Under the pieces are notes generated by a model. That model was given only the letters and a program-made list of their open reading frames with translations. It ran no database searches and was not told the DNA's origin. From contig JAUSDY010000078.1 of NCBI GenBank assembly GCA_030650395.1, positions 62,001 through 126,000 of the forward strand: a DNA stretch of 64,000 bases. Reading direction: 5' to 3'. Position numbers and translations under genes: made by a program. Below are positions 19,951-28,517 of the stretch, piece by piece (the stretch's first letter is position 1; each line of letters opens with the position of its first letter). The stretch is from Acidobacteriota bacterium. Lineage in GTDB: Bacteria > Acidobacteriota > Vicinamibacteria > Vicinamibacterales > UBA2999.

Positions 19951-21312
19951 TCAAGAGAGCCATCCGCCGATGGTTTGGACGAGCAGCCAGGCGTTGAGCG
20001 AGCCGATGACGATGGCGACCACCCAGGCGACGCCAGTCAGCCACTTCGGGTTGACGAATACGCCCATGCGCGCCGCATCGCTGGTGAAGATCACGAGCGG
20101 AACCACCGCGAACGACAGCTGCAGGCTGAGCACCACCTGGCTCAACACCAGCAGCCAGCCCGTGCTGTCCTCGCCGAACCACACAATCGTGATGAGCGCG
20201 GGCACGAGCGCCAGCAGGCGCGTCACCAGACGCCGCAGCCACGGCCTCAGGCGAATGTGGAGGAAGCCTTCCATCACGATCTGCCCCGCGAGCGTGGCCG
20301 TGAGGGTGGATGCCGTGCCCGAGGCGAGCAGCGCCAGCGCGAACAGCGTGCTGGCGCCGGCGACGCCTAGCAGCGGCGACAGCAATTGATACGCATCGCG
20401 GATGTCGGCGACGTCGTAGCGGCCGGCCTGGTGGAAAGTCGCCGCGGCCACCACCAGGATCGCCGCGTTCACGAAGAACGCCAGTGACAGCGCGGCCGTC
20501 GAATCGATGGTCGCGAACTTGATCGCCTGGCGCTTGTCGACCTCGCCGCTCGCCCACGCCCGGGTCTGGACGATCGACGAGTGCAGGTAAAGATTGTGCG
20601 GCATCACCGTGGCGCCGAGGATGCCCATCGCGATGTAGAGCATCTCGGGATTGGAGAGAATCTGCGTCGTCGGTAGCAAGCCGACCGCGAGGCTGCCGAG
20701 GTCGGGACGCGACATCAGAACCTGGATCCCGAAACACACCGCAATCGTGGTCACGAGCGTGACAATGATGGCTTCGGTGAAGCGGAAGCCCTTGTTCTGC
20801 AGCCACAGCAGCATGAGCACGTCGAGCGTCGTCAGGCAGACGCCGAAGGCCATCGGGATGCCGAAGAGCAAATTGAGCGCCAGCGCGCTGCCCAGCAGTT
20901 CCGCCAGGTCGCAGGCGACGATCGCGATCTCACACAGGACCCACAAGCAGATCGCCACGGGCTTCGAGTAATAGTCGCGGCAAGCCTGCGCGAGATCGCG
21001 GCCGGTGGCCACGCCGAGCCGCACGCACAGCGCCTGCAGCAGGATCGCCATCAGGTTCGAGATCAGGATGACGCTCAGAAGCGCGTAGCCGAACTTCGAT
21101 CCGCCCGCGATGTCCGTGGCCCAATTGCCCGGGTCCATGTAGCCGACTGAGACGAGATAGCCGGGACCCAAAAACGCGAGGAACCGCCGCCATGGGGCGC
21201 CGGAGATCGGTACCGCGATCGAACGATAGACCTCAGGTAGGGACGGAACCTTGACGACGGTCTGCTCGAGGGGCGCTGGGTCGGTGACGAGATTTTGAAT
21301 AATCAAAATCAT
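19951..21312 (-). CDS. mntH: MntH, Nramp-type Mn2+/Fe2+ transporter
   Basis: A 453-residue inner-membrane transporter with about eleven helices. The metal-site motifs are intact: DPGNWATD (Asp60, Asn63) in helix 1 and [10 protein letters not shown] in helix 6. It is transcribed divergently from a DtxR/MntR-type regulator 65 bases away, the common arrangement for manganese-controlled uptake. Confidence 0.95.
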
Positions 21313-21377
21313 AAGCCAGTATCAGGCGAAGAATCAAGCGGGCCCTTTCAAACCTTTGCTAAGATGTTGAAGGCTCA

Positions 21378-22049
21378 ATGCTTCCGTCCAGTACCGTTGA
21401 GAATTACCTGAAGGCGATTTACGTTGGCGAGACCCATTTGGTGGGCGGGCAAAGGCTCGTACCGATGGGGCAACTGGCCTCGGCGCTGGGCATTGCTCCT
21501 GGCACCGCCACCACCATGGTGAAGGCGCTCGCCGAGTCGGGGCTCGCGATCTACGAGCCGTACAACGGCGTGCGCCTGACGTCAGCCGGCGAAAAGCTCG
21601 CCGCGCGCGTGCTGCGACGCCACCGCTTGATGGAGTTGTTCCTGGTGCAGGTGATGGGCATGCGTTGGGACGAAGTCCACGACGATGCGGAGCAGTTGGA
21701 ACATGTGGTGTCGGATCGACTGGTGGAGCGCATCGACGAGATGCTGGGCCATCCGGAAGTGGACCCGCATGGCGATCCGATTCCGACGGCGGAGGGCAAA
21801 CTCGCGGAGCGGCCGCTCGATACGCTGCTGACCTGCCCGTTGCACACGCGCGTCACCGTGGCGCGCGTCACCGATCAGGACGCGGCCTTCCTGCGGTTCC
21901 TCGAGAGCCATCATCTCAAGCCCGGTCAGACGATCGAAGTCGAAGCGCGCGACGAAGTATCAGACGCCGTGCTGCTCAAGGGCCGCGACGATGCGCGCAT
22001 GACAATCGGCGCTCGTGCCGCATCGAAGCTGCTGGTCAAAGCTTCCTGA
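21378..22049 (+). CDS. mntR: DtxR/MntR-family metalloregulator
   Basis: A 223-residue metal-dependent repressor. The winged helix (STVENYLKAIYVGE, MGQLASALGIAPGTATTMVKALAESGL) is followed by the dimerisation/metal domain (RHRLMELFLVQVMGMRWDEVHDDAEQLEHVVSDRLVERI) and a FeoA/SH3-like C-terminus. The divergent mntH suggests manganese as the main signal, though an iron-sensing role is possible. TAAGAT just ahead of the gene (about 21359-21364) could be its -10. Confidence 0.88.
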   Translation: MLPSSTVENYLKAIYVGETHLVGGQRLVPMGQLASALGIAPGTATTMVKALAESGLAIYEPYNGVRLTSAGEKLAARVLRRHRLMELFLVQVMGMRWDEVHDDAEQLEHVVSDRLVERIDEMLGHPEVDPHGDPIPTAEGKLAERPLDTLLTCPLHTRVTVARVTDQDAAFLRFLESHHLKPGQTIEVEARDEVSDAVLLKGRDDARMTIGARAASKLLVKAS

Positions 22050-23646: not shown

Positions 23647-23838
23647 CCGAAGGGTGTCACCGTGGTGCCGGCCGAACCGTCACTGCGCCGCCACGTCTAC
23701 GCCGCATGGCGCACCCACGCGACGCGCCGCAACGTGATTCGCGCGGCGGTGGAGGCATTTCAGCTCGCCGCGTCGAAACTCAACACGACACCTACGTCGC
23801 GCACTCGCCGTCGGTCGTCTCGGGCCGAAACGCGGTAG
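23647..23838 (+). pseudogene. C-terminal remnant of a LysR-type regulator
   Basis: In the plus direction, LPKGVTVVPAEPSLRRHVYAAW followed by RTHATRRNVIRAAVEAFQLAASKL is the characteristic end of a LysR effector domain; the rest, including the DNA-binding domain, is missing. It overlaps the end of the sulfite reductase gene on the other strand. It abuts the EamA remnant, so both ends meet at what looks like a deletion scar near 23646. Confidence 0.6.
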
Positions 23839-25624
23839 TCTCGGCGAGATCGATGTAGTCGGTCGCCGTTGCCGTCTCGCTCGTCAAGCTCTCGAGATCG
23901 CTCAACAGCGCCTTGACCTTGGGCACCTCGATCCTCCGGAAAAACGCCACCGGCGTTTCACCGTCCTGCTTCTCGTCCGCATAAAGACGCACGAGTCGTT
24001 CGAGCGCCGTCGCGGCACGGCGGGCAGGCACCTTGGCCGCGAGCCGTCCGAAGGTCGTGCGGTCCGCATCGATGCCGCCGCCGACCTGGATGAAGTACTG
24101 CGGCACGGCCTTGCCGTCCACCTTCCGCAGGCTGCCCTGGAACCCGATCGTTGCAATGTGATTCTGGCCGCACCCGTTGGGGCAGCCGCTGATCTTGATG
24201 TCGAGTTCCCTGGCCATCTCGATCAACTCCGGAGCTGCGCGCAGGTGCTGCTCGAGCGCCTGGCCGAGCCCGCGCGACTGCGTGACCGCCAGCTTGCACG
24301 ACTCCGCGCCAGGACAACTCGTGACGTCGGCGATCGAATCGGCGTCGGGCAGGCCCAACCCCGCTGCCTGAAGACAGTTGTAGAGCGCCGGCAATTCGTT
24401 TTGGCGGACCCATCTGAAGACGAGGTCCTGAACCGCGCTCACCCGGACCGTGCCGTCGCCGTAGGCAGAGGCGAGATCGCCGAGGACGCGGAACTGCGCG
24501 CCGCTCAAGTCGCCCAGCGGCACCGTCACGACGGCCGACACAAAGTCGTTCTGCTTCTGCGGCCGCACGTTGGTGCGGACCCAACTCTCGAAATGACCGA
24601 GCGTGGCCGGCGAGGTCCGTCGCTCGGGGACGATGCCGGGACCACGGAGGGACGCCGCCTCGAGGCGCCGAACGATCTCGTCGACCGCCGGCGCTGGCGG
24701 ACGCCGCCACGACGGCGCGGCTTCGTCGCTCGCGGGCTCCTGCTCGAATTCCAGCTTGCGCCCGCCTTCCGCGCGAACCTTCGCCAGCGCGTCGTCGAAC
24801 GCCGCACGCCACGCGTCCCATCCCAGGGTCTTGATGAGGAACTTCATGCGGTTGCGTTGCTTGTGCTTGTAGTCGCCCCGCTCGTGGAACACGCGGATCA
24901 CGGCCTCGGCCACGCGCAGCATGTCTTCGACGGGCAGAAAATCAAAGAGCACCGCCGCCGCGGTCGTCATGGTGGCCGTCCCGCCGCCGATGTAGACGCG
25001 GAATCCGCGGTGGCCCTCCTGGATGCGCGCCAGCCAGCCGATGTCGTTAATGGTGAGCTTGATGTGATCGCGCGAACAGCCTTCAAAGGCGATCTTGAAC
25101 TTCCGCGGCAGCGACGAGCTCAGCGGGTGTCGAAGCAGGAAGCGCGTGAGCGCTTCCGCGTACGGCGTGACGTCAAACGGCTCGTCGGCGGCAACGCCGG
25201 CAAACTGGCAGGCCGTGATGTTACGGACCGAGTTACCGCAGGCTTCCCGCGTGGTCAGGCCGGCCTCGGCCAGCCGGCGCATCGCGGGTTCGGCATCGTG
25301 CAGCTTGACGAAGTGCAACTGGATGTTCTGGCGTGTCGTGATGTGGCCGAAGCCGCGCGAGTACTGCTCCGCGACGTCGGCGAGCGCGTCAAGCTGCTCC
25401 ACCGTCAACACGCCCTGCGGAATTTTCACGCGGATCATTTGCGCATCGTCCAGCTGACGCTGCCCGTAGGTGCCTCGGACGAGGCGGAACACGCGCCACT
25501 GATCGGGTGTGATCTCGCCACGTTCGAATTTGCCGAGCATGTCGGCAAACTCGTCGATGTCGGCTTCGCTCGCGAACGACAGCCGCGCGCGGCCAAGGGT
25601 TGTCGGGCTGTCATGAGCGGACAT
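23792..25624 (-). CDS. Sulfite/nitrite reductase, siroheme [4Fe-4S] type
   Basis: A 610-residue, two-repeat reductase that takes six electrons to reduce sulfite to sulfide (or nitrite to ammonia). The siroheme-iron-sulfur ligands are TSCPGAESC (Cys437, Cys443) and SGCPNGCGQ (Cys481, Cys485). Ferredoxin-like repeats start RVKIPQGVLTVEQLDALADVAEQ and YSRGFGHITTRQNIQLH. The operon carries both siroheme genes upstream and a cysteine-rich leader, which favours sulfite as the main substrate, but nitrite is not excluded. The end of the gene overlaps the LysR remnant. Confidence 0.93.
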   Translation of the reverse strand: MSAHDSPTTLGRARLSFASEADIDEFADMLGKFERGEITPDQWRVFRLVRGTYGQRQLDDAQMIRVKIPQGVLTVEQLDALADVAEQYSRGFGHITTRQNIQLHFVKLHDAEPAMRRLAEAGLTTREACGNSVRNITACQFAGVAADEPFDVTPYAEALTRFLLRHPLSSSLPRKFKIAFEGCSRDHIKLTINDIGWLARIQEGHRGFRVYIGGGTATMTTAAAVLFDFLPVEDMLRVAEAVIRVFHERGDYKHKQRNRMKFLIKTLGWDAWRAAFDDALAKVRAEGGRKLEFEQEPASDEAAPSWRRPPAPAVDEIVRRLEAASLRGPGIVPERRTSPATLGHFESWVRTNVRPQKQNDFVSAVVTVPLGDLSGAQFRVLGDLASAYGDGTVRVSAVQDLVFRWVRQNELPALYNCLQAAGLGLPDADSIADVTSCPGAESCKLAVTQSRGLGQALEQHLRAAPELIEMARELDIKISGCPNGCGQNHIATIGFQGSLRKVDGKAVPQYFIQVGGGIDADRTTFGRLAAKVPARRAATALERLVRLYADEKQDGETPVAFFRRIEVPKVKALLSDLESLTSETATATDYIDLAETTAFRPETTDGECAT

Positions 25625-25642: not shown

Positions 25643-26422
25643 TCAAGAATGGGCGCCGGCCCGCGCGTCGGCCGTCACAAATCCTTCGAACAGGTCGATC
25701 GGCAGCCCCGCCACGGCGCCGACGACGATGGTGCCGGGCGCATCGCCGTTAGGAGCCGGAACGGCGACGGTCGCGAGTTGAGCGAGGCCGCCCTTCCACA
25801 CCCACATGTGCGGCGTGGCCGCGCCCAGCACCAAGGCCGCCGGCGTGCCGGCCGGCCAGCCTCTGTCGATCAGCCGCTGAGTCAGGCCCGCCCTGGCTCG
25901 CACCGACATCATCGCCACCAGCGTGAGCAAACCTGGCGGGAGCGCAGCGATTGTCGCGTCGAAGGCGCTTTCGTCCGATGCGGTGATCACGACGAAGCCG
26001 GATGACGTGCCGCGGTGTGTCACCGGAATGCCGGCGAGGGCCGGCGCCGCGATCGCGGTCGTGAGGCCCGGCACCACCTCGAACGGAATGCCGGCGGCCT
26101 GCAGGGCCAGCGCCTCCTCGCCGCCCCGGCCGAACACGAACGGGTCCCCGCCTTTGAGGCGGACGACTCGCCGGCCCGCGAGACCGGCGGCCACCAGCAG
26201 GTGTTCGATCGTCGCCTGTGACGTCTGCTCGCCTCCGCCGCGCTTGCCGACGCAGACGACCTCGGCATGTCTCGCCAGCGCCAGCACCTCGGGCGACACG
26301 AGCGCGTCGTGGAGCACGAGGTCCGCTGCGCGGAGGCGGCTCGCGGCCTTCTGCGTCAAGTGATCCGGATGGCCGGGTCCGGCGCCAACCAGCGAGACGA
26401 ATCCGCAGGCCGGTGCGGTCAT
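25643..26422 (-). CDS. cobA: Uroporphyrinogen-III C-methyltransferase (SUMT)
   Basis: This 259-residue enzyme methylates uroporphyrinogen III twice to precorrin-2, the first step to siroheme. The family motifs VSLVGAGPGHPDHLTQKA, RLKGGDPFVFGRGGEE and VVPGLTTAIAAPALAGIPVTHRG are all present. The gene overlaps the precorrin-2 dehydrogenase gene by four bases and sits just ahead of the sulfite reductase, so the siroheme made here is for that enzyme. Confidence 0.95.
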   Translation of the reverse strand: MTAPACGFVSLVGAGPGHPDHLTQKAASRLRAADLVLHDALVSPEVLALARHAEVVCVGKRGGGEQTSQATIEHLLVAAGLAGRRVVRLKGGDPFVFGRGGEEALALQAAGIPFEVVPGLTTAIAAPALAGIPVTHRGTSSGFVVITASDESAFDATIAALPPGLLTLVAMMSVRARAGLTQRLIDRGWPAGTPAALVLGAATPHMWVWKGGLAQLATVAVPAPNGDAPGTIVVGAVAGLPIDLFEGFVTADARAGAHS

Positions 26423-27312
26423 CGCGGTCTCGTGGCGCGGTCGGGCGAGTCGTACAAGCGGTTCAGCGCGTCGAGCAGCTGAGGACGTCTCGCGGGCATC
26501 GGCACGCCCGCATCACGTTGGCGGCGGCTGAGGTCGTGCGCGCGCTCGGCCCACGTCGCGATATCGGCGGGCACCAGCTCGTCGAATGCTTCACGCAACA
26601 GGCCGGCGAGCGCCGGCGCCTGGCCCGCGGTCGAGAACGCTACGGTCACGCCGCCGCGGGCAATCGTGCCGCCAAGGAACGCGGTGGCGTTCGCCGGATC
26701 GTCAACCGCATTCACGAACACGCCCCTCGTTTCCGCAGCCTCGCGGACGGCCCGGTTCACCGCCGGCGGCGCCGCCGCGGTCACGAACCACGCGCCGTCG
26801 AGGTCGCCGTCCTGAAATGCGCGCTGAACGACGCGGACCCGCGATCGATCGATGGCGCTCGAAACATCAGGCGCAACAACCGTGACATCGGCACCCGCAG
26901 CGAGCAGCGCCGGAATCTTCGATGCCGCCACGGCGCCCGCGCCGACCACCACGACGCGGCGGCCGTCGAAGCGGAGAAACACCGGCAGGCGCGGCAGGTT
27001 GCGATCATCGGGCTGAGACAGCGGTGTTGAGCTCCTCCGCCCGAGAGCGATCCCGACAGCGAGCGCGATTGCGAACCCTGCGAACAACCACGCTCCGTTC
27101 AGCGAGAGCGGAAGCCGGCTGAGGTCGAGCGGGCCGGGCAGCCCCGGCCACGGGCCCTTGCGAGAGATGTCTTCCCACAGCAGCAGGCCCAGCGCGACGA
27201 CGGTCGCTGCCGAGGCGAGCGGCGCGGCGGTGAGCCGATCGAGCCACCACGGCGCGTCCTGGCGCTCGGCTTCCGGTTCGACAAACGGTTCAACGAGTAG
27301 CGGTATGGCCAT
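26419..27312 (-). CDS. Membrane-anchored precorrin-2 dehydrogenase (Met8/CysG-B type)
   Basis: The C-terminal 195 residues are a siroheme synthase N-domain: NLPRLPVFLRFDGRRVVVVGAGAVAASKIPALLAAGADVTVVAP, FVTAAAPPAVNRAV, FVNAVDDPANATAFLGGTIARG and the Asp used for oxidation/ferrochelation. The N-terminal 95 residues are foreign to the family: two predicted helices (ASAATVVALGLLLWE and GAWLFAGFAIALAVGIALG) that should anchor the enzyme in the membrane. A GGGG sequence about ten bases upstream serves as ribosome-binding site. It is the first gene of the operon behind the cysteine leader. Confidence 0.9.
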   Translation of the reverse strand: MAIPLLVEPFVEPEAERQDAPWWLDRLTAAPLASAATVVALGLLLWEDISRKGPWPGLPGPLDLSRLPLSLNGAWLFAGFAIALAVGIALGRRSSTPLSQPDDRNLPRLPVFLRFDGRRVVVVGAGAVAASKIPALLAAGADVTVVAPDVSSAIDRSRVRVVQRAFQDGDLDGAWFVTAAAPPAVNRAVREAAETRGVFVNAVDDPANATAFLGGTIARGGVTVAFSTAGQAPALAGLLREAFDELVPADIATWAERAHDLSRRQRDAGVPMPARRPQLLDALNRLYDSPDRATRPR

Positions 27313-27338
27313 GTCAATTCCCCACGAAAAACGAAACC

Positions 27339-27378
27339 AAAAACGACAAAGCCCGGAAAGCTGAGAAGCCTTCCGGGC
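27339..27378 (-). terminator. Intrinsic terminator / attenuator ahead of the siroheme operon
   Basis: In the minus-strand transcript, GCCCGGAA and TTCCGGGC (27371-27378 and 27351-27358) form an 8-bp G+C-rich stem with extra pairing inside, followed by TTTGTCGTTTTT. It lies between the cysteine-rich leader peptide and the first structural gene, so it would stop transcription before the operon unless prevented. Confidence 0.75.
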
Positions 27379-27430
27379 CTTGGTCTGAAACTTGTTTGGT
27401 GTGCCGGTTGTGGAAGCTAGGGGGGCACGA

Positions 27431-27505
27431 TCAACATGTGCAGAGCGCGGCGCTCGGAGGCTGGGCCCCGAGACAACAACACGCGCAGGTGCACATCGCG
27501 AACAT
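27431..27505 (-). CDS. Cysteine-rich leader peptide (24 residues)
   Basis: The minus-strand frame from ATG at 27505 reads MFAMCTCACCC, then LGAQPPSAA, then LCTC and a TGA: seven cysteines in 24 residues, three of them consecutive TGT codons. A second in-frame ATG is at 27496. No Shine-Dalgarno precedes it, but the promoter places the transcript start at or one to three bases before the ATG, so translation would be leaderless. It precedes an intrinsic terminator and the operon for siroheme and sulfite reduction. This is the layout of cysteine-responsive ribosome-mediated attenuation, known as leaderless poly-cysteine frames in mycobacteria. Confidence 0.75.
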   Translation of the reverse strand: MFAMCTCACCCLGAQPPSAALCTC

Positions 27506-27514
27506 CAGGAGAGT

Positions 27515-27544
27515 TTTATCCCACGAGCTCGCGGCAACTGTCAA
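27515..27544 (-). promoter_or_regulatory. Promoter of the leader peptide / siroheme operon
   Basis: The minus strand has a perfect -35 TTGACA (27539-27544) and a -10 GATAAA (27515-27520) 18 bases apart, preceded by TGG as in extended -10 boxes. Nine bases separate the -10 from the leader ATG. It begins 14 bases behind the stop codon of the preceding lipoprotein gene. Confidence 0.7.
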
Positions 27545-27557
27545 GTGCTGGCCAACA

Positions 27558-28517
27558 TCAACGCTCGATGCGGATCCAGCCGTCGCCGGTGCGAACCTTG
27601 AGGATCTTGCCGCCGTCGCCCATCTTCGCCCGGAGGCTGCGCCGCCGCTCGCGGCGCTCGTCGCTATTTTCTCCGTCGCGCCGGCCTTCCCCAGCCACGT
27701 CCTTCAGCAAGGGATGCTGATCGATGCGGACGGCGCCAGAGGCGGTTTCCAAGTCGAGCTCGGCGTTGAACCTCGAGGGCAGGGTCAGGACCACATTGCC
27801 GTCGCCGGTTGTGAAGTCCCAATCTGCGGTCATCGCGGAATCCGGATCGATGTTGACGCGAATCGTGCCGTCGCCGGTCTTGGCGTGTAGCGCCGTGGGT
27901 TTGGCGTCGATGCCGATGCTGCCGTCGTCGGTTTCGAGATCGAGCTTGCCGGCGGCATCCTCCAATTTGATCGAGCCGTCACCGGTGCGGATCTGGATGT
28001 CGCCCGTCACGCGCACGCCGGTCACGCTGCCATCAACGGTATTGAGCACGAGCTTGCCGTCAAGTGCTTCCACGCGTATCGAACCGTCGCCGCTTTTGGC
28101 CTCGAGGTTGGTCGCGCGGGGGACGGCGACACGTAAGCGCGCGGTCGGCGAGATGTGCATGCCGATCGTGACGCCGCGGAAATCGGTGCGGGCCGGCCCG
28201 GTGACGCGCACCACGATCCGGTCGCCCTTCTGCTCGACTTCGACTGTCATCTGATCGATGAGCGGCTGCGCCATCGCCCGCCTTTCGATCTCGACCTCGA
28301 CCTCGTTGCGGTCCCACGAATGCACCTCGATGGCGCCGTCGAAGGTGTCCAGCACCAGCTCCGGCGCGCCGGTCACTTTGAAGGTGCGGGTGTCGCGCGA
28401 TGACAGCCCTTCGGTATGGAGGTTCATTTCGCATGCGCCCAGCGCGGTTGCGGCGAAAAGCGCGACGGCGGCCGCGAGGGCGGGTCGGCGGATCTGGAGC
28501 GTCATGCAGTACCTCAC
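27558..28517 (-). CDS. DUF4097 lipoprotein with beta-helix repeats
   Basis: The 319-residue protein starts with a lipoprotein signal peptide (AALAAAVALFAATALGAC, lipobox LGAC, Cys about 29), so it is probably anchored in the outer or inner membrane. The rest is a DUF4097 right-handed beta-structure: LVLDTFDGAIEVHSWDRNEVEVEIERRA, then repeats around the sequence TGDGSIKLED and DGSI (KSGDGSIRVE, TDDGSIGID, TGDGTIRVN, TTGDGNVVL). The C-terminus adds a charged insert and a last TGDGWIRIE repeat. Members are often next to anti-sigma genes; none is here. Role unknown. Confidence 0.8.
   Translation of the reverse strand: MRYCMTLQIRRPALAAAVALFAATALGACEMNLHTEGLSSRDTRTFKVTGAPELVLDTFDGAIEVHSWDRNEVEVEIERRAMAQPLIDQMTVEVEQKGDRIVVRVTGPARTDFRGVTIGMHISPTARLRVAVPRATNLEAKSGDGSIRVEALDGKLVLNTVDGSVTGVRVTGDIQIRTGDGSIKLEDAAGKLDLETDDGSIGIDAKPTALHAKTGDGTIRVNIDPDSAMTADWDFTTGDGNVVLTLPSRFNAELDLETASGAVRIDQHPLLKDVAGEGRRDGENSDERRERRRSLRAKMGDGGKILKVRTGDGWIRIER

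Follow-up and report, generated by a model that had tools for sequence, protein, structure and literature searches.

The stretch of Acidobacteriota DNA analyzed here (64,000 nucleotides; hereafter the window) carries on its minus strand a three-gene operon, whose gene identities were assigned with Pfam and NCBIfam. The first gene (26419..27312) encodes a precorrin-2 dehydrogenase, the siroheme synthase N-domain (TIGR01470, PF13241), and overlaps by 4 bases the gene for uroporphyrinogen-III C-methyltransferase (SUMT; 25643..26422; TIGR01469, PF00590). The third gene (23792..25624) encodes a nitrite/sulfite reductase family protein with two stretches each of PF01077 and PF03460; NirA/CysI-type models score below cut-off for this product, which, judged from its sequence, is probably an assimilatory sulfite reductase. 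This order agrees with the siroheme/sulfite reductase operon proposed in a preliminary description of the same DNA, the third gene being placed at the level of the nitrite/sulfite reductase family. Among the nearest named relatives of the first protein, all from uncultured Acidobacteria MAGs, that of Acidobacteria MAG RIFCSPLOWO2_12_FULL_67_14b is 77% identical; several of the related records bear the names Vicinamibacteria or Vicinamibacterales, and on the strength of these relatives the genome is placed in the class Vicinamibacteria. In the window protein, an N-terminal extension of approximately 105 residues (26990-27312), with the hydrophobic stretches VVALGLLLW and AIALAVGIALG, precedes the dehydrogenase domain; the extension also occurs in L002, of the same genus, and in L003, whereas for nearly all other relatives the alignment lacks it. 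At 19951-22049, an NRAMP-like transporter ORF (minus strand) lies back to back with a DtxR/MntR-like regulator ORF (plus strand), as recognized by eye from the translations.

Upstream of the first gene, also on the minus strand, a –35 box TTGACA (27539..27544) is separated by an 18-base spacer from a –10 box GATAAA (27515..27520), which lies 9 bases before an ATG at 27505; the –10 spacing is identical in the close relatives L002 and L003. The ATG opens a presumably leaderless frame, MFAMCTCACCCLGAQPPSAALCTC* (27431..27505), of 24 codons, seven of which encode Cys, and the three consecutive TGT codons at 27473..27481 are the presumed stall site. The encoded peptide is identical in the same-genus genome L002. 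Between the frame and the genes lies a G+C-rich hairpin, GGCCCGGAAGGCT-TCTC-AGCTTTCCGGGC (27379-27351), with a folding energy of –27.4 kcal/mol, in which the predicted terminator 5΄ arm (region 3, GCCCGGAAGGCT, 27367..27378) was delimited by sequence, folding and covariation and the 3΄ arm (region 4, AGCTTTCCGGGC, 27351..27362) by sequence and folding. The hairpin is followed by the T-rich tract TTTGTCGTTTTT (27339..27350), and the GGGG Shine-Dalgarno-like sequence of the first gene is located 3΄ of this tract, outside the hairpin. Within the frame, the putative antiterminator strand (region 2, AGCCTCCG(AG), 27453..27462) was defined by its covariation and pairing with the terminator 5΄ arm, AGCCTCCG (27462-27455) standing opposite CGGAAGGCT (27375-27367), and folding indicates that a CTCGG (region 1, 27463..27472) would form a protector stem with the CCGAG of region 2 as long as the RNA is free. 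The promoter, the frame with its Cys codons, the hairpin with its T-tract and the pairing of the frame with the 5΄ arm had all been pointed out in the preliminary description, and direct reading of the sequence bears each of them out. The whole leader is more stable than its dinucleotide shuffles (z = –2.4), and the window had no Rfam match at the gathering score.

We examined whether this arrangement recurs in related genomes. The first protein is present in 60 of 99 of these, and Cys-rich short frames recur 5΄ of its gene in many relatives, with a shared plan in which TTGAC and a –10 box are 17-18 bases apart, GTG or ATG follows 8-10 bases after the –10 box and opens a Cys-rich frame, and a GC-rich terminator lies some 100 nt 3΄ of the first Cys codon, ahead of the gene. 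In the siroheme/sulfite reductase leaders of Vicinamibacteria, the frame has 23-36 codons and a strong terminator lies 84-118 nt 3΄ of the first Cys codon. The architecture is kept in 22 leaders from several families (terminators from –17.9 to –33.5 kcal/mol), and in a larger set of 72 non-redundant leaders the predicted terminators average –24.4 kcal/mol and have a T-tract; every parsed leader contains a strong predicted terminator between frame and gene. In some relatives the gene starts directly after the T-tract, and at three loci (L012, L017 and L021) the hairpin nearly abuts the start codon. A model-free detector requiring no alignment (at least 4 Cys codons in 9, a short frame and a terminator) matched 37 of 80 upstream regions of homologous loci (approximately 121 kb), while 560 kb of control DNA taken at these loci gave 7 matches; this confirms that the unit of Cys frame and terminator occurs upstream of homologous operons more often than expected by chance. 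A separate search with the pattern ATGTGYNNNTGYNNNTGYTGY gave 29 matches, against 13 in the reversed control, and was set aside, as only a few matches with a following terminator looked real. Homologous leaders lacking Cys codons or the terminator would have spoken against the preliminary description; instead, the frame, the promoter spacing, the terminator and the covarying antiterminator proved to be conserved across several families within the order. The comparison of sequences confirms the window leader as one member of a conserved family in the class Vicinamibacteria.

The spacing between promoter and frame bears on how translation of the leader would begin. TTGAC or a near variant was found 36-42 nt before the in-frame start codon in 58 of the 72 leaders (at 38-39 nt in 40 of the 58), and the remaining 14 had no –35 element within the range searched, 36-43 nt upstream of the start codon, under the criteria used. 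The start codons of the 58 leaders are GTG (40), ATG (15) and TTG (3), and only 7 contain a Shine-Dalgarno-like motif, at a position that would overlap the promoter. This spacing argues strongly for leaderless frames with a 5΄ UTR of about 0-3 nt, and it does not prove that +1 is the A of the ATG.

We then calculated the pairing energy between the strand that directly follows the Cys codons and the 5΄ arm of the terminator in the same leader, and compared it by permutation with the energies obtained when the arms were exchanged among leaders (2:3 pairing). In the set of 22 leaders, pairing with the own arm averaged –22.4, compared with –18.1 for exchanged arms (sd 0.6, 0/5000 permutations). 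The 72 non-redundant leaders gave –20.99 and –18.40 kcal/mol, respectively (sd 0.31, z = –8.5, 0/10000 permutations), and the excess was found both in siroheme-type leaders (z = –6.8) and in those of other operons (z = –3.9); the segment nearer the terminator showed no excess of own-partner pairing in the 72 leaders. Examples are the arm GCCCGGAAGTC with CGACTTCCGGGC (L025), CCCGGGACC with GGTCCCGG (L020), ACCCGCGAACC with GGTTCGC (L033) and, in the window, CCCGGAAGGCT with AGCCTCCG. Covariation of this kind would be expected if the leaders are classical attenuators, and it upholds the antiterminator that had been suggested from the window alone. The peptide tail VPALSV is conserved in one family because of a constraint on the RNA, its coding sequence GTCCCGGCG being the antiterminator strand.

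Folding the leader for alternative stems, as had been recommended at the outset, indicated a switch in the window: when the transcript ends with the 5΄ arm and the RNA is free, region 2 is sequestered in the CTCGG/CCGAG stem and upstream capture of the arm has a probability of 0.12, whereas a ribosome placed on the Cys codons raises this to 0.78-0.9995. The 1:2 protector stem, clear in the window by folding, showed weak covariation across leaders (z = –2.4). For the 72 leaders, the mean capture of the 5΄ arm was 0.82 in free RNA, 0.96 in the stalled state and 0.82 with shuffled segments; with capture so high in the free RNA already, the clear thermodynamic switch seen in the window does not extend to the set as a whole. 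For the other leaders, these folding models point to an off state that probably comes from ribosome movement and kinetics rather than from a stable protector stem. It is here that the mechanism has its largest gap, the 1:2 stem being weakly supported outside the window.

To identify the genes that might be controlled by such leaders, we trained a covariance model on the 22 leaders and obtained matches in 70 of the 99 relatives at E ≤ 0.01, the weakest of which cover the terminator alone, a structure that other genes may have as well. The genes downstream of 38 matches outside the training set were identified, and 35 of the matches proved to precede genes of sulfur, cysteine or thiol function: cysD, accompanied by cysN and in most cases by cysH (13 of 38; two contigs stop inside cysD), TauE, alone or 5΄ of cysDNH or cysH (5), cysteine synthase CysK/CysM (3), a YeiH-type transporter (4), a RimK-like ATP-grasp protein (4), a TlpA/ResA-like redoxin (4; L116, L135, L141 and L143), and a cysH-containing siroheme operon together with a SUMT-sulfite reductase operon (2). 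Poly-Cys attenuators also precede an outer-membrane/TonB-type protein gene (1; L129) and a 224-aa ORF without a Pfam or NCBIfam match (1; L145). The last of the 38 (L140) precedes a prephenate dehydratase gene; its frame is rich in Phe rather than Cys and has a terminator in the same arrangement as the Cys leaders, and shows the attenuator architecture with another codon, matched to another pathway. A Phe-rich short frame with a terminator at L272 (about 1021-1100) is a second candidate. A Phe leader was absent from 29 of 30 upstream regions of prephenate dehydratase genes, and Phe leaders therefore do not provide a general control for codon swapping. Two loci from the pattern search (L060 and L077) have an ATP-grasp gene and cysDNH downstream. 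The RimK-like ATP-grasp gene is repeatedly the first behind a poly-Cys attenuator (L080:1140-2387, L121, L128, L133 and L142), and a relative of it lies 3΄ of the redoxin gene in L116; the product of the enzyme may be a peptide containing Cys, or a thiol.

In the window's own genome, a model search at E ≤ 10 gave one convincing copy, that of the window, and CysD was not found. The preliminary description dealt with the one siroheme/sulfite reductase operon of the window; in the class the picture widens to a multi-operon cysteine/sulfur regulon, for which the downstream genes provide support and in which the response to cysteine is presumed. Among 396 genomes of the phylum, 29 had a match at E ≤ 1e-5, all belonging to the same class as the window (26 to the same order and 3 to another family in the class); this search is less sensitive than that of the 99 relatives, and weak leaders elsewhere could escape it. 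Most homologues of the first gene labelled Myxococcota were without the leader module. Two loci labelled Myxococcales/Deltaproteobacteria (L175:2390-2475 and L176:540-620) have a leaderless-looking poly-Cys frame before the siroheme gene, with a MCACACCCRPGL... sequence of the MNRMCACACCCRPGLTARVCARA type, and no clear intrinsic terminator was seen at either. Entries titled Bifidobacterium breve (L186), Planctomycetales (L166) and Acidimicrobiia (L218) contain Acidobacteriota-like first genes (56-60% identical), and these titles are probably wrong; the L186 locus carries the attenuator.

We consider it highly probable, from the arrangement of the sequence elements, that the leader mediates ribosome-dependent transcription attenuation, in which a leader peptide from a leaderless frame would serve to sense charged tRNA-Cys. 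Transcription would start on the start codon or no more than about 3 bases from it, and, as the spacing suggests, ribosomes would enter the Cys-rich frame unaided by a Shine-Dalgarno sequence. When cysteine is plentiful, the ribosome would clear the Cys codons and region 2 would be covered or refolded with region 1; with region 2 occupied, the terminator (3:4) would form and the operon would be off. When Cys-tRNA is short, the ribosome would stall on the Cys codons and cover region 1, and the free region 2 would capture the terminator 5΄ arm (2:3), allowing RNA polymerase to read into the siroheme/sulfite reductase genes. In the window frame the stop codon comes after region 2, so the off state must arise through refolding in the wake of the ribosome. 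Sequence comparison makes the elements and their co-evolution visible, and from them we infer the stalling, the read-through and the cysteine response.

Other readings of the same leader were weighed against this one. A stalled ribosome in the poly-Cys tract might open a structure in which the first gene's ribosome-binding site is otherwise concealed, which would be translation attenuation with the type of sensor, a leaderless poly-Cys frame, found in mycobacteria. Where the hairpin almost touches the start codon, as in L012, L017 and L021, a translational effect is possible, and in such relatives the hairpin could act on translation as well. However, the window leader and the remaining ones have a strong intrinsic terminator with a U-tract between frame and gene, the GGGG of the window gene is free of the hairpin, and the covariation partner is the terminator 5΄ arm; we therefore regard translation attenuation as improbable.

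The Cys codons might instead slow the ribosome under oxidative stress, or the RNA might directly sense a ligand such as siroheme or sulfide; thiol-redox genes are indeed among the targets (the four TlpA-like redoxins). Against such a redox or metal sensor, the alignment shows no conserved aptamer-like core beyond the codons, promoter and terminator, Rfam finds nothing in the window, and Cys makes up 19% of the residues in the frames, more than any other amino acid, though the frames were chosen for Cys; this reading appears very improbable. Slighter still is the chance that the product of the frame is a small peptide that functions in binding metals or thiols, with a passive and partly leaky terminator. 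Cys-X-Cys-X-Cys-Cys-Cys patterns do recur, but the frame length and Cys spacing are variable, the residues after the Cys tract differ by family, those that are conserved track the RNA pairing (VPA is GTC CCG GCG, on the antiterminator strand), and the leader unit precedes different sulfur operons.

Transcription attenuation by dispersed copies of one element leads to a broader proposal, which we favor by a small degree: that the cysteine supply of Vicinamibacteria is largely controlled by ribosomes, the copies of this leaderless poly-Cys attenuator defining a cysteine/sulfur regulon that predicts gene functions, as a terminator-based counterpart of the mycobacterial leaders with an apparently separate origin. 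If this is true, membership in the regulon would predict functions for the RimK-like ATP-grasp ligase, the YeiH-type transporter and the secreted redoxin, and would tie uncharacterised genes to cysteine or thiol metabolism. For a group that is widespread and mostly uncultured, a single element would provide a regulon open to testing. Cysteine-sensing transcription attenuation has barely been documented so far, and here putatively leaderless leader peptides would be joined to classical terminator/antiterminator switching. The element also suggests that poly-Cys sensing was reached independently in Actinobacteria and Acidobacteriota.

Attenuators of the trp/his type combine a leader peptide, mutually exclusive antiterminator and terminator structures, and codons for the product of the pathway. 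The leaders described here share these features: codons matched to the pathway, an intrinsic terminator whose action is predicted, and a co-evolving, mutually exclusive antiterminator were all found; they differ in the probable leaderless initiation, in the stop codon 3΄ of region 2 and in cysteine as the proposed signal. The ilvBNC leader of Corynebacterium glutamicum, according to the title of Morbach et al. 2000 as listed in PMC10272879, likewise attenuates through a leader peptide whose synthesis requires no ribosome-binding site, and differs in that it concerns branched-chain amino acids in a single operon of Actinobacteria. In Rhodobacterales, uORFC-8-2, a short frame with Cys codons before cysS, was predicted to act by ribosome-mediated transcription attenuation (PMC8632094). 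It resembles the present leaders in combining such a frame with an intrinsic terminator; however, its two Cys codons are at 14-15, its target is cysS, it occurs in Rhodobacterales only and it is not reported to be leaderless (PMC8632094), whereas here 3-9 Cys codons lie near the 5΄ end and the targets are sulfate assimilation and siroheme genes, cysDNH and others. A survey of premature terminators left almost all predicted attenuators of Acidobacteria without an assigned function (PMC2965389), and a description of this Vicinamibacteria leader was not found in the open-access literature searched. The mycobacterial cys leaders, noted early on in PMC4633059 as well, are poly-Cys frames without a conserved or recognisable terminator (PMC1262725), and the passages of PMC13236596 and PMC9031893 that cite Canestrari et al. 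2020 treat leaderless polycysteine short ORFs, which in the former act on translation. The likeness lies in the presumably leaderless frame, the consecutive Cys codons, the cysteine/sulfur genes and the several operons per genome; in mycobacteria, a different phylum to which no sequence relation is shown, the ribosome-binding site is masked and there is no terminator, in contrast to the Rho-independent terminator and covarying antiterminator found here. The mycobacterial precedent cited in the preliminary description therefore applies to the leaderless poly-Cys sensor and not to the output, which is translation there (PMC13236596) and likely a Rho-independent terminator here. Judged by its sequence features, the Vicinamibacteria leader is best described as an attenuator with trp-type working and a mycobacterial-style sensor, standing outside both the mycobacterial and the Rhodobacterales families.
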